A DNA stretch of 34,825 bases from Puniceicoccales bacterium (GTDB lineage Bacteria > Verrucomicrobiota > Verrucomicrobiia > Opitutales > LL51): NCBI GenBank assembly GCA_031255005.1, contig JAIRTH010000014.1:1-34825 (forward strand). The letters are read 5' to 3'. Below, piece by piece: positions 27,848 through 34,825 of the stretch. Position 1 is the first letter of the stretch. Each line of letters opens with the position of its first letter. The notes below the pieces were generated by a model. The model worked only from the letters and a program-made list of their open reading frames with translations, was not told the origin of the DNA and made no database searches. Both the position numbers and the translations under genes were made by a program.

Positions 27848-28720
27848 TCAGTATCCAAATATCCTGATATCCAGCTGATTAGCACGATCTAACACATTTT
27901 CCCTGTCAAGGACAATGGTACAATCTGATTCCAATGCAGCATATTTTATGCCAGCTTCTATCATAGAGTCCAGTGTGCGCATCCCGAAAACCGGCACATC
28001 AAACCTGAAATCATGGCCAAATTTAGAAGTTTTTACAAATAAAGCATTTCTCACATTGAATTTACCAGCTCTTAGCAACATGGCATCGGTGCCATCGAAT
28101 TCTTCCACACACAACACGGTACCGTTCTTCACAATGACGCCTTGGCCTATGTCCAATTTAGCTATCTCGCGCGCCATTCTAATACCATAGTTTAGGACCT
28201 CATCCTTCAGGTCAAACTTTCCATCGGTCAATTGGCCAACACTTACTATGTCTTCATCCATGAACGAGCGGGCATCTAACACCTTAATGTCATGCTTTTC
28301 AATAACTTCGCATACAGAGCCAAAGATGGTTTCGGCATTTCGAACATTTAGTTTTCTCAGTAAAAACAGCGCTCGCCAATCCGGTCTGAGTCCATGGAAT
28401 AGTTTTTTGGGATGTATCCGCCCAGCCATTATCACATAACCTGCCTTTATGGATTTCAATATCTTAAGTAACCTGCCTAGATTTCCTACATTTATTATGA
28501 ATTTATCATCTTCACCAAAGGCATTAAGCAATTGCTCATCGGTTTCATCTTCCAATGCTATCAGTTTAACCTTGACACCAGATTTGATCATGCGCTGGGC
28601 ACATAAAATTGGATAAATTCCACTGCCAGCTAACAGTGCAACGATGTTTGATCCATCAAAATCATAGGGAAGGAAATCCGAATCTAACCTGATACTACTA
28701 CTTTTTTGAAACATCGTCAT
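27848..28720 (-). CDS. lpxI: UDP-2,3-diacylglucosamine diphosphatase LpxI
   Basis: LpxI hydrolyses UDP-2,3-diacylglucosamine to lipid X in lipid A synthesis; it replaces the unrelated LpxH in many alphaproteobacteria and others. The 290-residue protein has the N-terminal ALLAGSGIYPILCAQ, the middle VIMAGRIHPKKLF and RSFMDEDI, and C-terminal PVFGMRTLDSMIEAG and YAALESDCTIVLDRE, all typical of the LpxI (DUF1009) family. The GTG at 28729 would add three residues. The start overlaps the PgpH-like gene by 23 bp or more. The lolC/E gene follows at once, so lipid A synthesis and lipoprotein release share an operon. Confidence 0.9.
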   Translation of the reverse strand: MTMFQKSSSIRLDSDFLPYDFDGSNIVALLAGSGIYPILCAQRMIKSGVKVKLIALEDETDEQLLNAFGEDDKFIINVGNLGRLLKILKSIKAGYVIMAGRIHPKKLFHGLRPDWRALFLLRKLNVRNAETIFGSVCEVIEKHDIKVLDARSFMDEDIVSVGQLTDGKFDLKDEVLNYGIRMAREIAKLDIGQGVIVKNGTVLCVEEFDGTDAMLLRAGKFNVRNALFVKTSKFGHDFRFDVPVFGMRTLDSMIEAGIKYAALESDCTIVLDRENVLDRANQLDIRIFGY

Positions 28721-31037
28721 AGGAAACACGGGAATGTAACATATTTACCATAATTGAGTAAAGAGCTTTTCTTAGTTCGTTTATCTCTTTCAAAGTCATA
28801 GAACAATCATCCAGCTGATGGGAAACCACTTTTTCATCGATAATATTATCCACCAATATTTTCACCGATTGGGGATTTATATTTTTCATCGATCGGCTGG
28901 CTGCTTCCAACGAATCTGCCACCATTAATATGGCAGTTTCTTTTGATCTTGGCGTCGGACCATCATACCTGAAAACGGCCTCATCTATGGCTTCAGCCGC
29001 CAAGGCCGCAGCCTTTGGATCATCGATCGGGACCAATTCAGATTCACGCTCACTCTGCTGTATCTGCTGCAATGCCTTGTTATAAAAATATCTTATTAGA
29101 GATGTGCCATGGTGTTCTCTTATGCCATTGATCACCCGTGGCGGTATACCAGCCCGCTCGGCCATGGCAATACCGTCCCTCACATGGGTTTTTATTATTA
29201 TTGCACTCACGAAGGGAGTTTTTTCATCATGGGGATTGAACCCTGCCCTTTGATTCTCAGTGAAATATTCAGGTTTTATTATTTTACCAATATCATGATA
29301 CATGGCAGAAGTCCTGCACAGAAAGGAGTTAGCGTTCATAGCTATGGCAGCCTGCTCGGCAATGTTCGCGACAATTAAGCTATGATGATATGTTCCTGGC
29401 GCTAGTATCTGCAAATTTCTCATCAATTCATGGCTATAGTCAGTCAATTCGACAAGTCTTAGATTGGTACAACACTTGAACCATTTTTCAAACAATGGAA
29501 GAATCCCCAGTGAAAACATGGTTGTAACAATGCCGGTCATAAGACAGCAAAACACCTGCCACAGACATACAAAATAGGTAATGTCTTTCGTCCAAAAATT
29601 CGAAATCGATGAAAATGAGAAGACCATGGCCGACCACATGCCGCCATAGATAACCTGGGATCTCAGTGATGCTCTACGGCAATAGTGAGCTGCAATGAAT
29701 ACAACCAATATGCACATCAACATGAACTCGATGTTCTCGGCAAGCATCATGGTGAAAAGAATAGAAACAAGACCACCAATTACCACTCCCACATAGGTTC
29801 GAATGAGCAATGTACAGAGTATTGTACTCAAATAAAATGGATTTATATAGGGCAACATATGTACAAAAACTTCCGAATCCCGGAAATGCTTGACTTCTCC
29901 AATCTGAAATATTGCTCTCAGGATTATCAGATTAGTAAACAAAATGGTCAGCATCAATAAAAAATTCTTAGATAAACTCTGTGCACTGCCCGGTGCCATT
30001 TTAAGGCACAGAAAGGAAAGTAGTAAAATGATAAACGTCGTTATAAATATCTTTACGGTTGCTGAATTTAACACATACCCAACAGTATTTAAATCGTCGA
30101 TATTTCTATAATAGGCCATCAATCGTTCGCGCACCGAGCTCTTCACCACTGTTCCGGCCTCCACAATGATATCTCCGGCATGAACTTCTTCTTTTACAGG
30201 TTCCACATCCTGTATCATCTTTAGAATTTTTGCATTGGTGGCATCTTCATCATAGGATAAATTTTTAGCTATGCCTTTTTTCATTATTCTAAACAGGGAT
30301 TGTTTTAGATCAAGAGGCCAGTCCATTGCTGATAGGCGTATTCTGAATAACTTTATGGCATCATCTTCTGATCTAACATGGGATTTCTTGGTATTGCCTT
30401 TTATTTCTATATTGAGAATTGGAGCTTCATTGTTTCCAAAAATATCCGAATTACTATAAACGCCATCGGCAAGAACATCTCGCAGGATATGCAAAGCCTC
30501 AATTATGGCAGCAGTTCTGGAATTTTCATCAATCGATTTAAGTAATACATCCACATCACCCCAACCCAGGGCCGAATTATATCTATCGTTGAATTTTCTT
30601 ACAAAATTTCTCAATTCAAACATATAAGCATTACCGATCTTTTCACCTTCAAGATTCTTACTTAGATTATCCAGTTCGTCGTCTAGGGCGAAAACTTCTT
30701 TTTCAAATCTGTCATAGTGAATAAAGCTCATGCTATACACCGGAGCCAATTGATTGCGAATCCTATTCTTTTCAATTCTTGTTCTTTCTTCGCTTTCATA
30801 GATGAAAGACTTATCAGCAATCACCGTTGCCTTGGCCTTTTGGCCTGGAATGAATTTAATAAAAAGTGAACTACGAAAAGCAAAACATAGCGTTGATATA
30901 ATAATAGATAGTATTAATATAATCAATAGAACAGGTGCAGTAACCAAAACCGGCGCATTATTGTTATATCTATCCAATAAGCGATGATTTGTTGATTCTT
31001 TACAGGTTCTGAGCCTTGACTTTTTGGAAAACCACAT
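28698..31037 (-). CDS. 7TM-HD phosphodiesterase, PgpH-like
   Basis: The 779-residue membrane protein has one TM helix near residue 35-55, a large extracytoplasmic domain (about 70-310), six to seven further TM helices (about 320-510), and a cytoplasmic HD domain. The HD core is seen in TYHHSLIVANIAEQA (about 551-565), MYHDIGKI (about 581-588) and REHHGTSLI (about 640-648), then DSLEAASRSM. In Listeria, PgpH degrades c-di-AMP; the substrate here is inferred only by family. I prefer the ATG at 31037 (preceded by GAGAAACTT) over a TTG at 31058. It is followed by lpxI in a 23-bp overlap. Confidence 0.88.
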   Translation of the reverse strand: MWFSKKSRLRTCKESTNHRLLDRYNNNAPVLVTAPVLLIILILSIIISTLCFAFRSSLFIKFIPGQKAKATVIADKSFIYESEERTRIEKNRIRNQLAPVYSMSFIHYDRFEKEVFALDDELDNLSKNLEGEKIGNAYMFELRNFVRKFNDRYNSALGWGDVDVLLKSIDENSRTAAIIEALHILRDVLADGVYSNSDIFGNNEAPILNIEIKGNTKKSHVRSEDDAIKLFRIRLSAMDWPLDLKQSLFRIMKKGIAKNLSYDEDATNAKILKMIQDVEPVKEEVHAGDIIVEAGTVVKSSVRERLMAYYRNIDDLNTVGYVLNSATVKIFITTFIILLLSFLCLKMAPGSAQSLSKNFLLMLTILFTNLIILRAIFQIGEVKHFRDSEVFVHMLPYINPFYLSTILCTLLIRTYVGVVIGGLVSILFTMMLAENIEFMLMCILVVFIAAHYCRRASLRSQVIYGGMWSAMVFSFSSISNFWTKDITYFVCLWQVFCCLMTGIVTTMFSLGILPLFEKWFKCCTNLRLVELTDYSHELMRNLQILAPGTYHHSLIVANIAEQAAIAMNANSFLCRTSAMYHDIGKIIKPEYFTENQRAGFNPHDEKTPFVSAIIIKTHVRDGIAMAERAGIPPRVINGIREHHGTSLIRYFYNKALQQIQQSERESELVPIDDPKAAALAAEAIDEAVFRYDGPTPRSKETAILMVADSLEAASRSMKNINPQSVKILVDNIIDEKVVSHQLDDCSMTLKEINELRKALYSIMVNMLHSRVSYDDVSKK

Positions 31038-31079
31038 AAGTTTCTCAGATAGATACAACCCTAACTGTAGCTGGCTAAT

Positions 31080-32843
31080 CTACAAGCTTATTATAGGCTT
31101 AGATAACCCAAATTTATTTTTTAACTCATTTAAAGAGATTTCCACCAGCGTCACATTGCCCCAGGGATCTGTTATATGATTATTGCTAGACAGCAGAGAT
31201 TTAACTAATTCCATTACATTTTCCATTTCATCATAATTTTTTATATTGATACAGCTACTAGCTAATTTTGCAAACCATTCACGATCCATCACTTCGATTG
31301 CTATTTTTCCACTATTGACCTCGGAAATGACATCCAATAGCAATTTTTCTGCCATCATTTCATCAAGCCATGGAGGTATAGCATCTATTCTGCATAGATC
31401 TTTTCCAAATTTTTCAATGACAATGCCATAGCGCGAAAATAGATCCATGGCACCATGGATGATTTCATCATCGGTCGTAGGCATTTGCACAACCCTAGGC
31501 AATAGAAGACATTGAGGTTCATCATTGATCTGTCTATGTACAAATTTCTCGAAAAATACTCGCCTTGATGCAGCTTTTAGATTTAAAGTCCAGAGGCCAT
31601 CCGTCGATTCAAAAATAGCGAATTGTCCGAAAACAGTGCCGATAAAAATTAACTCCAGATCCCTATTTATCACAACTTGTTCGACATTTAATGGTTCCAA
31701 TTCACGGATGTGCGTTTGCCTTGGAGGTAATTGAAAAACGTTACCGGTCCTATCCCACATAAATTTTGCCCTAGGCCCCGGAATGACTTCCAAATTAGAA
31801 GCAATGGATTTTTTTGATTGAAACCCGGAGATATCAACCACTGATTTTGACAGTAAAAATGAATCAATGGCTTTATATATGGCTTTCTCTATCAAATCCT
31901 TAACTGCTCGTTCATTTTTAAATCTAACTTCCCTTTTCTGTGGATGAACATTCACATCGATGGTATTTTTCGGAAAATTCAGTGATATAAATGCTACTTG
32001 GCCCTGCCAATGAGGTATAAATCCGGCATAGGCATCGCGAACAGCTCTATTTACAGTTTGGCTCAGTACCTGTCTTTTATTTACAAAGCAAACAATCTCT
32101 GTTTTATTAGCATTTATACATGAAGGATTAAGCAAGGCACCTTCCACCGAAATATTTCCGGAACAATCTGCGAAATCAAACAGCCATTCGGCATAGAATT
32201 CGCCGTATAGTTTAGAGGCTCTATGACTCCAACCATCGCAAACCGGAGAACAAAATAGCAATTTTCCGTCTCTATATAGTTCAAATTTCACCTTCCGTTC
32301 GGCCAACATAAAAGCTCTCATTACTCTTATTATATGCGCAGTTTCGGTCTCATCGGACTTTAAAAACTGCCTACGGGCCGGCAGACTATGTAACAATCCG
32401 GTGACTTCGATAAATGTACCTGAAGTCAACCCACATTCTTTGACATGTTGGATTTTTCCTGCATGGACAAAAATTTCTGTACCGGCTTCACTATTACCAT
32501 CATTGGTCCGCATTAAAAACTTAGAAACGCTGGCAATTGCCGGAATAGCTTCTCCTCTAAATCCGAACGTATCAATGGTTTGAATATCTTCTACCGAGAT
32601 TATTTTACTGGTGGCGTGTCTGAGCATTGACAGCTCAGCATCAACTCTGGACATGCCGATGCCATTATCTTCAATGGCTATCAAATTCTTACCTCCGGCG
32701 GAAAATCTGACAACAATTTTAGTAGCATTTGCATCTAAACTATTTTCTACTAATTCTTTAATTACAGCAGCAGGTCTCTCTACCACTTCGCCAGCAGCTA
32801 TCTGGTTGGAAATATATTCCGGCAATATCTTTATTTTCGACAT
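31080..32843 (-). CDS. mutL: DNA mismatch repair protein MutL, endonuclease motifs absent
   Basis: MutL links mismatch recognition by MutS to strand removal. The 587-residue protein has the GHKL ATPase: ELVENSLDAN (about 30-39), DNGIG (about 59-63), GFRGEA (about 94-99) and VNVHPQKREVRF (about 298-309). The C-terminal dimerisation domain follows (about 395-587). The endonuclease motif DQHAxxER reads NLKAASRR (about 421-428), and CPHGRP reads DPWGNV (about 559-564). The ACxA motif is also absent, so the protein should not cut DNA. The start is chosen by the family pattern SKIKILPEYISNQIAAGE; ATG 32864 would add seven residues. It is divergent from the sigma-factor gene. Confidence 0.95.
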   Translation of the reverse strand: MSKIKILPEYISNQIAAGEVVERPAAVIKELVENSLDANATKIVVRFSAGGKNLIAIEDNGIGMSRVDAELSMLRHATSKIISVEDIQTIDTFGFRGEAIPAIASVSKFLMRTNDGNSEAGTEIFVHAGKIQHVKECGLTSGTFIEVTGLLHSLPARRQFLKSDETETAHIIRVMRAFMLAERKVKFELYRDGKLLFCSPVCDGWSHRASKLYGEFYAEWLFDFADCSGNISVEGALLNPSCINANKTEIVCFVNKRQVLSQTVNRAVRDAYAGFIPHWQGQVAFISLNFPKNTIDVNVHPQKREVRFKNERAVKDLIEKAIYKAIDSFLLSKSVVDISGFQSKKSIASNLEVIPGPRAKFMWDRTGNVFQLPPRQTHIRELEPLNVEQVVINRDLELIFIGTVFGQFAIFESTDGLWTLNLKAASRRVFFEKFVHRQINDEPQCLLLPRVVQMPTTDDEIIHGAMDLFSRYGIVIEKFGKDLCRIDAIPPWLDEMMAEKLLLDVISEVNSGKIAIEVMDREWFAKLASSCINIKNYDEMENVMELVKSLLSSNNHITDPWGNVTLVEISLNELKNKFGLSKPIISL

Positions 32844-33041
32844 ACAGAATTTAATATGAGCCATCGAGCTCAATCACTATGCTTTATCATAACTTCATGA
32901 ACGACAAGTCAAAAAAAATCATACATTGTTATAAATTTATGGAAAATTTTGCTTTTTTACATTTCTCTAGCTAAGATATGTAAGCCATGGAAATTTTTTT
33001 GTATTGCCATTCATTTATATTTAAAGAGAGTTATCATTGAC

Positions 33042-33683
33042 GTGAGTAGCATAGAAATAATAAAGCCTGGTCCTCTGGATATTAGCACTGCGGATGTAAT
33101 TTTGAATGGCGAAGTTCTTGAGGAAAAGGATGTGGTAGCCAGAGCCCAATGTGGCGATGTGGCTGCCTTTGAAGCTTTGGTGAAGAAATATCGCGAGAGA
33201 TTGTATTCGGTGGTGTATCATTTATTGTCAAATGCCTCTGATGCAGCGGACTTAACCCAGGATATTTTTATAAAAGCTTTTCGCTCTGTGCATAAATTTA
33301 AAGGTCAGTCTGCCTTTTTCACTTGGCTATATAGAATAGCAATTAACATGACCATGTCCCATCTTCGGAAGCATAAAACCAACAGATTCTTGGCTCTAGA
33401 ACAGTTCGATGAATCTGCATTACCAAAAGATGTGGTCGAAAAAATTACCTTGGAAAATCCGACTGAAAAAAGTGCTTATCTTTTAGAATTACGAAAAGCA
33501 CTGAACGAATCTCTCCAAAAATTGTCTAATGAACATAGATTGGCTGTTGTGTTGTTTGAAATCGAAGGATTATCCCATGGAGAGATTGCAGAAATAATGG
33601 GCTGCTCTCCGGGTACAGTTCGGTCCAGGTTGCACTACGCCAAACTTGAATTACAGGCATATTTAGAGGATTTTATCAAATGA
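33042..33683 (+). CDS. ECF-type RNA polymerase sigma factor (RpoE-like)
   Basis: The 213-residue protein has sigma-70 region 2 (about 30-105), seen as DLTQDIFIKAFRSVHKFKG and FFTWLYRIAINMTMSHLRK, and region 4 (about 153-205), seen as LSNEHRLAVVLFEIEG, GLSHGEIAEIMGCSPGTVRSR. There is no region 1.1 or 3, as in ECF factors. The start is a GTG at 33042, with AGAGAG at 33025-33030; the upstream extension to 32949 is unlikely to be coding (hydrophobic and unlike sigma factors). A putative anti-sigma gene starts in an ATGA overlap and an HtrA-like gene follows. This sigma/anti-sigma/protease layout is that of the RpoE-RseA-MucD type envelope-stress system. Confidence 0.92.
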   Translation: MSSIEIIKPGPLDISTADVILNGEVLEEKDVVARAQCGDVAAFEALVKKYRERLYSVVYHLLSNASDAADLTQDIFIKAFRSVHKFKGQSAFFTWLYRIAINMTMSHLRKHKTNRFLALEQFDESALPKDVVEKITLENPTEKSAYLLELRKALNESLQKLSNEHRLAVVLFEIEGLSHGEIAEIMGCSPGTVRSRLHYAKLELQAYLEDFIK

Positions 33684-34147
33684 GATTATTTTTTCCATCT
33701 AATGATAGGCGATCGAAAGATCAGGATAAAAAGTTGTCGGCTCTATTGCAGATCAAAAAAGCCGAAATACCATCAAGGGATTTCTGGGCCAATTTTGATA
33801 CCAAACTCCATAGTAAGCTGGTAACCTCGATGGATGAAGGGGTCCCCAAGGCTGCGATTCATTCATTTTTTATGACAAGCAGAAGTGTGGTTTCCTTCAT
33901 ATCCTGCGTTGCTTGTTCGATTGCCATAATAATGGCCTTTGAAATCCAAGATCATCCAAGTAAACGCAGTCAACCAAAAGAGCCGCCTCCGTGTGTAAAG
34001 CATTTTGTCAAAAATGAGCTAACTTCCATTACCGGTTGTCACGACTTGGTGGCCTATACATCGGGTAATCATAATACAACTTGTTATGTCAGTAATTCTC
34101 TGGGGACAGAATCTTCCTGTTGGCCGAGGCCAAATAACTCATTTTAG
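33680..34147 (+). CDS. Putative membrane anti-sigma factor
   Basis: The 155-residue protein starts within the sigma stop codon (ATGA). A cytoplasmic segment (about 1-68) contains IPSRDFWANFDTKLHSKL, similar to the P-x-x-F-W-x-x-F-x-x-x-L pattern found in short anti-sigma-like proteins of Verrucomicrobia. A single transmembrane helix (about 71-90) follows, then a Cys-containing extracytoplasmic tail of about 60 residues. Position and topology point to an anti-sigma factor; no zinc H-x3-C-x2-C motif is seen. The tail may be a site for regulated cleavage. This is inference from context. Confidence 0.65.
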   Translation: MRLFFPSNDRRSKDQDKKLSALLQIKKAEIPSRDFWANFDTKLHSKLVTSMDEGVPKAAIHSFFMTSRSVVSFISCVACSIAIIMAFEIQDHPSKRSQPKEPPPCVKHFVKNELTSITGCHDLVAYTSGNHNTTCYVSNSLGTESSCWPRPNNSF

Positions 34148-34177: not shown

Positions 34178-34825
34178 ATGAGGTGTGTGTTCTATGCAGT
34201 TGCACTAACTACCATCGGCCTACTTTATTGTAATGGTGATACGTCCGATGGTTGTGTCTGCAAAAATTGTGGAACAGCTATCGAATTCTCAGCGATATCT
34301 CCATTTTCCTTTGTCAGTGATATTTTTTCAAAGAGAAAAAACTCTGTGGTCAGAATCATTGGCATTCGCATCGATGGCAATGATTCTTCGAATACAAAAC
34401 CCGATGCCAAGACGGAAACTAAATCCGATGCTTCAAATCGAGAAAAATCCGCTGAGCATAATGGGAAAATTTTGTTCGGCTCTGGTTTTTTCATAGATGA
34501 TCTTGCTCGTACGGTTACCAGTGCAACCATTGTGGATGCAGCAACCAATATATGGGTGGAATATAATGGCCTATCCTATGCAGCAGAACTTGTTGGGTTG
34601 GATCGCGTTACAAACATAGCCATAGTGAGACTTCTCAAAAAACCTGACAATTTTGATTTCATCGACATTATGATTGGAAAACCCAGGGATAGCGTTCAAT
34701 GTGGTGAATTTTTGGTTTCGGTGGAATGTAAACTTGGGCTGGATCCAGCTCCAAATTTTGGCATAGTCGTCGGAGAAAATTCCAGCTATGAAAATAGTTC
34801 ATTTCCGGTTAAATTGACCAGAACC
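34178..34825 (+). CDS. HtrA/DegP-like protein with degenerate catalytic residues (partial, continues beyond the window)
   Basis: The first 216 residues of a longer protein are present; the frame is open to the window edge. It starts MRCVFYAVALTTIGLLYC, a probable signal peptide, followed by CVCKNC at 26-31 and a low-complexity linker (about 65-95). Then comes a trypsin-like S1C fold: GSGFFIDD (101-108), TVTSATIVDAA (112-122) and ELVGLDRVTNIAIVRL (137-152). In DegP the second and third motifs are VTNNHVVDGA and VGxDxxTDLAVLK. Here Thr117 takes the place of the catalytic His and Asn146 that of the Asp, so protease activity is unlikely; it may be a chaperone or sensor. The Ser site and PDZ domains are outside. 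ATG 34178 is 30 bp after the anti-sigma stop, in the same operon. Confidence 0.75.
   Translation, partial: MRCVFYAVALTTIGLLYCNGDTSDGCVCKNCGTAIEFSAISPFSFVSDIFSKRKNSVVRIIGIRIDGNDSSNTKPDAKTETKSDASNREKSAEHNGKILFGSGFFIDDLARTVTSATIVDAATNIWVEYNGLSYAAELVGLDRVTNIAIVRLLKKPDNFDFIDIMIGKPRDSVQCGEFLVSVECKLGLDPAPNFGIVVGENSSYENSSFPVKLTRT

Follow-up and report, generated by a model that had tools for sequence, protein, structure and literature searches.

An HtrA-fold pseudoprotease encoded beside an ECF sigma factor in Opitutales, probably a non-cutting part of an envelope stress switch

The last gene of the window (the whole stretch of DNA that was analysed, 34,825 nucleotides from a Puniceicoccales bacterium) encodes a protein with the fold of HtrA proteases that lacks the catalytic residues and follows genes for an ECF sigma factor and an anti-sigma-like protein. 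Judging from sequence comparisons, this pseudo-HtrA probably does not work as an enzyme but acts, without cutting, as a sensor or cap in an envelope stress switch. We propose that it is the dead, exported HtrA of an ECF sigma/anti-sigma/pseudo-HtrA module, in which its PDZ domain would cap the tail of an anti-sigma that Prc and RseP would cut, a reading to which we assign a probability of roughly 0.5. The loss of catalysis, its conservation and the linkage can be read from the sequences; tail binding and capping are what we infer. What the initial annotation had picked out as a local oddity is a class-wide family, and the C-terminus of the anti-sigma is implicated as well.

Structure and catalytic positions of the pseudo-HtrA

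The window is the entire contig C14 of a genome (G000) of 865 kb that is 95% complete, and the pseudo-HtrA gene runs off its end. Using an HMM built from 30 orthologs, we found the 3' portion of the gene in the same genome, at the end of contig C15 (10258 b) on the reverse strand. C15 shares 8 b with the window end, in frame with the ORF at 34178-34825. While this overlap is weak by itself, frame and homology combined make the join secure, and the joined gene agrees with the full-length gene (L004) of a same-genus genome, G001. Named orthologs come from Opitutales, among them Puniceicoccaceae bacterium 5H and Cerasicoccus frondis. The interruption inside the gene (window 34825/G000:C15:10258) is an assembly break and not a biological end. 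The joined protein of 365 aa consists of a signal peptide, a linker, a trypsin-like domain and one PDZ domain followed by the stop, with no early stop that would mark a pseudogene. In the full-length protein of G001, matches to Trypsin_2 and then PDZ_2 are found, trypsin and PDZ being the only domains. The N-terminus is hydrophobic in 95 of 110 orthologs, and most pseudo-HtrAs retain the hydrophobic-Gly-hydrophobic loop of the PDZ domain.

As for the trypsin-like core, the profile searches and a fold model bear out what had been recognised from the sequence. Pfam Trypsin_2 matches the ORF with 27.7 bits, marginally above the cut-off of 27.6. Against the curated family TIGR02037 (degP_htrA_DO) the score is 119 bits, below the cut-off of 416, and against the NCBIfam DegS model it is 72 bits for a cut-off of 423. 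An AlphaFold2 model of a homologue from Puniceicoccaceae bacterium 5H (L103, 13-row alignment) reached a pLDDT of 83.5, with a low-confidence C-terminal tail, and its best matches in the PDB are DegP, DegQ, DegS with OMP peptides (YQF peptide), AlgW and MucD.

The columns of the catalytic triad were set in two independent ways, by a MAFFT alignment of 30 orthologs and by a profile alignment against DegP chains in the PDB, in which "ltnasvv" aligned on "LTNNHVV" and "vtNlal" on "RSDVAV". Both place Thr117 and Asn146 at the positions of the catalytic His and Asp, as the initial annotation had claimed. The third position, read on C15, is Thr (GGETGSP), which gives T/N/T for the window's protein (Table 1). 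Across 133 Opitutales genomes (~27 families), the His column holds no His at all (Ser 62, gap 25, Asn 18, Thr 11, and others), the Asp column holds Asn in 117 genomes and Asp in one, and the Ser column holds Gly in 64 and Ser in 27, most genomes being without Ser. The Ser-keeping copies, which are some members of nine families, lack the His, and therefore no complete triad exists in the 133 genomes. A relocated triad is ruled out: His and Asp stand nowhere else in the fold, and the ortholog alignments over these genomes contain no conserved His or Asp substitute. In one family (f17; L095, L207-L213, L215), all nine copies have Thr at the Asp position, where Asn is near-invariant elsewhere. The triad is degenerate as well in 12 homologs from outside Opitutales, where, by eye, His is replaced by Ser, Thr, Gly, Asp or Glu, Asp by Gly or Arg, and Ser by Ala, Ile, Leu or Gly; a homolog from another class (G225) has Asn at both the Asp and Ser positions.

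Table 1. Features of the sigma/anti-sigma/pseudo-HtrA locus in window coordinates
Feature	Position	Strand	Basis
ECF sigma factor, RpoE-like	33042..33683	+	GTG start taken, frame open from 32949; Pfam Sigma70_r2/r4_2
Anti-sigma-like protein, 155 aa	33680..34147	+	PxxxFW N-terminal motif and position common to orthologs
Probable transmembrane segment of anti-sigma, ~residues 69-88 (VVSFISCVACSIAIIMAFEI)	33884..33943	+	Sequence directly
C-terminal Asn-Ser-Phe of anti-sigma, candidate PDZ ligand or degron	34136..34144	+	Terminal Phe/Tyr across orthologs
HtrA-fold pseudoprotease, residues 1-216 of 365	34178..34825	+	Frame open up to contig end; Pfam; contig C15 join
N-terminal export signal (predicted), hydrophobic, residues 1-20	34178..34237	+	Sequence directly; orthologs
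CxCxxC, residues 26-31	34253..34270	+	G000 and G001 only; missing from other genomes of the family
Thr117, catalytic His position	34526..34528	+	Ortholog alignment; DegP profile alignment
Asn146, catalytic Asp position	34613..34615	+	Ortholog alignment; DegP profile alignment
Arg215, invariant in ortholog alignment A1; Gln in canonical HtrAs (IQTD before GNSGG)	34820..34822	+	

Conservation and linkage to the sigma factor

When the pseudo-HtrA was compared with that of the same-genus genome, dN/dS was 0.076 overall (Nei-Gojobori, own script; dS ~0.9), with 0.21 in the linker, 0.059 in the protease part and 0.014 in the PDZ part (dS 1.3), which is thus the most constrained part of the protein. 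Other close pairs gave 0.10-0.23. These values point to purifying selection, and together with the full-length frame across C14/C15 they rule out a decaying gene. We built an unrooted tree from 93 proteins of HtrA type, by a quick method and with some long branches; in it, 43 Opitutales pseudoproteases and 12 homologs of other orders (one of them from another class) were split from 38 others, including canonical HtrAs, with 100% SH-aLRT. This tree is most simply read as showing that the inactive clade arose once. A search for a phage origin gave nothing. The proposal that the gene is a retained pseudoprotease is strongly supported by the complete frame, the low dN/dS, this 55-member dead clade and the missing His in all 133 genomes.

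The pseudo-HtrA is encoded in a conserved setting. The ECF sigma is matched by Pfam in regions 2 and 4, without region 3, and scores 139.9 bits against TIGR02939 (RpoE), below the cut-off of 236. The anti-sigma gene overlaps the sigma stop by 4 b, and its product has no family match in Pfam or NCBIfam. Its orthologs share the PxxxFW N-terminus and mostly a transmembrane segment (a hydrophobic segment exceeds a Kyte-Doolittle threshold of 1.6 in 92 of 116), while their periplasmic parts are otherwise highly variable. The placement after a sigma/anti-sigma pair noted at first is confirmed: in most of 36 loci, the genes for the ECF sigma, the anti-sigma-like protein and the pseudo-HtrA follow one another in this order on a single strand, overlapping or separated by short gaps. 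Families f30, f31, f34, f35, f36 and f40 of the same class have the triplet too, as does G225, which belongs to another class; beside the pseudo-HtrA of f39, the sigma alone is recognised. Family f30 includes genomes in a single contig of 2.2-2.5 Mb, which we take to be Methylacidiphilum. By Pfam, no RseB/MucB-family protein is found in the pseudo-HtrA or its operon neighbours.

Further features of these loci were recorded. In the window, mutL and a 7TMR-HD protein with an HD hydrolase domain (28698-32873, minus strand) lie divergent from the sigma gene, and in free-living relatives a polyprenyl diphosphate synthase-like gene (HDDILDNADLRR-type motif, by eye in one sequence) often lies directly upstream of it (cluster c3: L076-L079, L084, L086, L090-L092, L094). 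Cys is absent from the periplasmic anti-sigma tail of large-genome families, but where genomes measure ~0.6-1.3 Mb nearly every family has one to four (f1 in part, f7, f13, f16, f26, f27 and f28; f6 has none), as surveyed in window 33680-34147, L069, L172, L178, L203-L206 and L217-L222. These Cys possibly reflect redox wiring, habitat or codon drift. The window's own copies combine four Cys in the anti-sigma tail with CxCxxC in the pseudo-HtrA. The latter had been put forward as a redox or metal site; this idea is weak, the motif being specific to the genus (G000, G001), and we dropped a redox role as a general feature.

Sigma and pseudo-HtrA are also lost together. Sigma orthologs (above ~200 bits with our HMM, cleanly separated from paralogs below ~160 bits) are present in 152 of 223 Opitutales genomes. 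With family f14 set apart, 202 genomes remain, of which, in raw genome counts, 130 have both genes, 63 neither, eight the pseudo-HtrA only and one the sigma only; several of the eight are cases at contig edges, with masked sequence or of low completeness. Absence of both recurs in f1, f7, f11, f17, f20, f25 and f28. In f17 the pseudo-HtrA lies outside the sigma operon, yet G048 and G063 have both genes, and G029, G091 and G122 have neither. The exception is f14 (L271-L281), in which the sigma is retained without the pseudo-HtrA in 20 of 21 genomes. Apart from f14, the pseudo-HtrA is thus co-lost with the sigma. Together with the conservation of the operon, this supports the earlier suggestion of a non-proteolytic sensor or chaperone, either of which would fit.

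Active HtrAs have a different distribution. In the window's genome the pseudo-HtrA gene is the sole Trypsin_2 match, and no further match was found in seven other f1 genomes with the pseudo-HtrA or in the small genomes G025, G028, G038 and G039, whereas large-genome relatives mostly have 2-13. As far as these incomplete assemblies show, the dead copy therefore outlives active HtrAs under genome reduction. Two proteases of other types are encoded in the window's genome, one S41 protease with a frame of 809 aa, a Prc-like size, and one RseP-like M50 protease with a frame of 608 aa.

The C-terminus of the anti-sigma

Of 118 Opitutales genomes, 107 encode an anti-sigma whose last residue is Phe or Tyr; among other ORFs of the same loci, the background is 13 of 173 (7.5%). 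The aromatic end is the majority state in 21 of 24 families (binomial over families, treated as independent, 4e-21). Since all four Phe/Tyr codons are in use, selection acts on the terminal residue itself. The tails found outside Opitutales, SYENGLSF, HYEAMVAF, TYDSVVAF, RYEASVDF and SYESTLRF, follow a YExxVxF-like pattern that closely resembles the C-terminal signature of outer-membrane proteins; at position -2 the Opitutales tails are hydrophobic only loosely. Where paralogous ECF sigmas of these genomes have an anti-sigma-like neighbour, it mostly ends differently, although two such neighbours end in Tyr.

There are exceptions. In f7, seven of eight anti-sigmas lack the terminal aromatic residue (R, R, I, K, N, N, M) while the pseudo-HtrA is retained (L172, L178, L187, L189, L199, L201 and L202), and further exceptions are G015, G027 (..SYK), G042 and G209. 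The idea that the Phe tail occurs only together with the pseudo-HtrA failed on f14, where the nine anti-sigmas that were read all end in Phe (..VSIKF, ..LTLKF, ..IVALRF) without a pseudo-HtrA. The pseudo-HtrA is therefore not the sole reader of the tail, which in f14 may be read by, for example, Prc or a canonical HtrA.

Possible function and comparison with known systems

The closest parallels are the site-1 proteases of the sigmaE/AlgU pathways, DegS in E. coli and AlgW in P. aeruginosa, which likewise combine a protease domain with one PDZ domain and whose partners are an RpoE-like sigma and an anti-sigma with one TM segment. The pseudo-HtrA differs in lacking the catalytic His and Asp and mostly Ser, and in being encoded in the sigma operon; since it has no triad, it is not expected to cleave the anti-sigma. 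Moreover, in the Opitutales module the anti-sigma itself bears the aromatic tail. C-terminal YxF/WVF tails are ligands of the DegS and AlgW PDZ domains (PMC8545111), and Prc/Tsp and RseP cut an anti-sigma-type regulator and TcpP (PMC10202637).

Because of these precedents for tail binding and for the cutting of membrane regulators, we favour a cap, in which the PDZ domain, on an inert protease scaffold, would bind the anti-sigma by its C-terminal tail, on the periplasmic side, and cover that tail. Outer-membrane proteins that get trapped in the periplasm would expose C-termini of a similar kind, which would compete for the same PDZ domain. The freed tail would then be open to the tail-specific protease Prc at site 1, after which an RseP-type protease would cut at site 2 and the sigma would be released. 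The HtrA fold would thus be both sensor and lock, the cutting being left to other proteases. The dead triad, the constrained PDZ domain, the linkage and co-loss with the sigma, the aromatic tail and the retained Prc-like and RseP-like proteases are the basis of this model; the tail without pseudo-HtrA in f14, the pseudo-HtrA without aromatic tail in f7 and the loose -2 position count against it. The present data may fit a plain chaperone or a presenter as well as a cap. We consider it possible, at clearly less than even odds, that in Verrucomicrobiota the site-1 slot of a sigmaE-type pathway is taken by an HtrA turned into a lock that does not cut, whose PDZ domain holds an anti-sigma tail that mimics outer-membrane proteins, with competitive displacement in place of allosteric activation of proteolysis, and that this lock outlives every active HtrA in symbiont-sized genomes.

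The pseudo-HtrA might instead be an output of the sigma factor, a periplasmic chaperone that is co-transcribed with it and binds misfolded outer-membrane proteins without cutting them, the tail being read by Prc or other PDZ proteases only. HtrA-fold proteins are capable of chaperone action, and mucD, the HtrA-type gene downstream of the ECF sigma and anti-sigma genes in the algU operon, is co-transcribed with algU. MucD and DegP are among the top sequence and fold matches of the pseudo-HtrA, which differs from them in having one PDZ domain instead of two, no triad and no conserved RseB/MucB-like gene in between. Both f14, with the Phe tail but no pseudo-HtrA, and f7, with the reverse, speak for a chaperone. 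Against it stands the single PDZ domain, with no sign of the second of DegP-type proteins. Consistent loss with this sigma would also be unexpected for a general chaperone, though possible for a member of its regulon, and we regard this alternative as rather unlikely.

Less probable still is an RseB/MucB-like role, in which the protein would shield the anti-sigma via surfaces other than the PDZ domain and tail and answer lipid or OMP signals. RseB/MucB is an equally non-catalytic periplasmic partner of the anti-sigma from a similar place in the operon, where we see no RseB-family protein. The fold, however, is that of HtrA and not of RseB, and the terminal aromatic residue and strongly constrained PDZ domain suggest interaction with the tail.

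A precedent for a dead subunit that regulates an active HtrA is MamO of Magnetospirillum, an HtrA pseudoprotease that promotes MamE-dependent proteolysis (PMC4794232). It shares with the pseudo-HtrA the HtrA fold, the loss of proteolysis and repurposing (PMC4794232), and several canonical HtrAs that could serve as partners occur in large-genome relatives. But MamO has His and Asp, with Thr for Ser, a transporter (TauE-like C-terminal) domain and metal binding for biomineralisation, and belongs to magnetosome genes with no sigma link, while the pseudo-HtrA has lost His and Asp and sits in a sigma operon. A MamO-like metal site was set aside, the conserved di-His being absent. Such a role is very unlikely, since the window's genome, the f1 carriers, G025, G028, G038 and G039 have no other Trypsin_2 gene and therefore no active partner of the same fold. 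Finally, that the protein still cuts through other residues or that the gene is decaying, as the Ser retained in 27 genomes and the truncated look in the window might suggest, can be given almost no weight, given the total absence of His, the lack of a conserved replacement candidate, and the dN/dS and joined frame that contradict decay.

Our literature search on HtrA pseudoproteases and on Verrucomicrobia ECF/protease operons, which covered mostly papers free of subscription, returned MamO and nothing on the pseudo-HtrA family; a catalogue of ECF groups may already have an entry for this operon. To our knowledge, envelope-stress sensing in Verrucomicrobiota is almost unstudied. The f14 family is a natural knock-out of the pseudo-HtrA and is useful for comparison. 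Several reduced-genome lineages seem to lack any active HtrA/DegP, and "trypsin-like peptidase" annotations in Verrucomicrobiota are misleading for one entire clade. The age and conservation of this pseudoprotease suggest that the HtrA fold can persist without catalysis, and raise the question of an anti-sigma that may bear its own OMP-like PDZ ligand.
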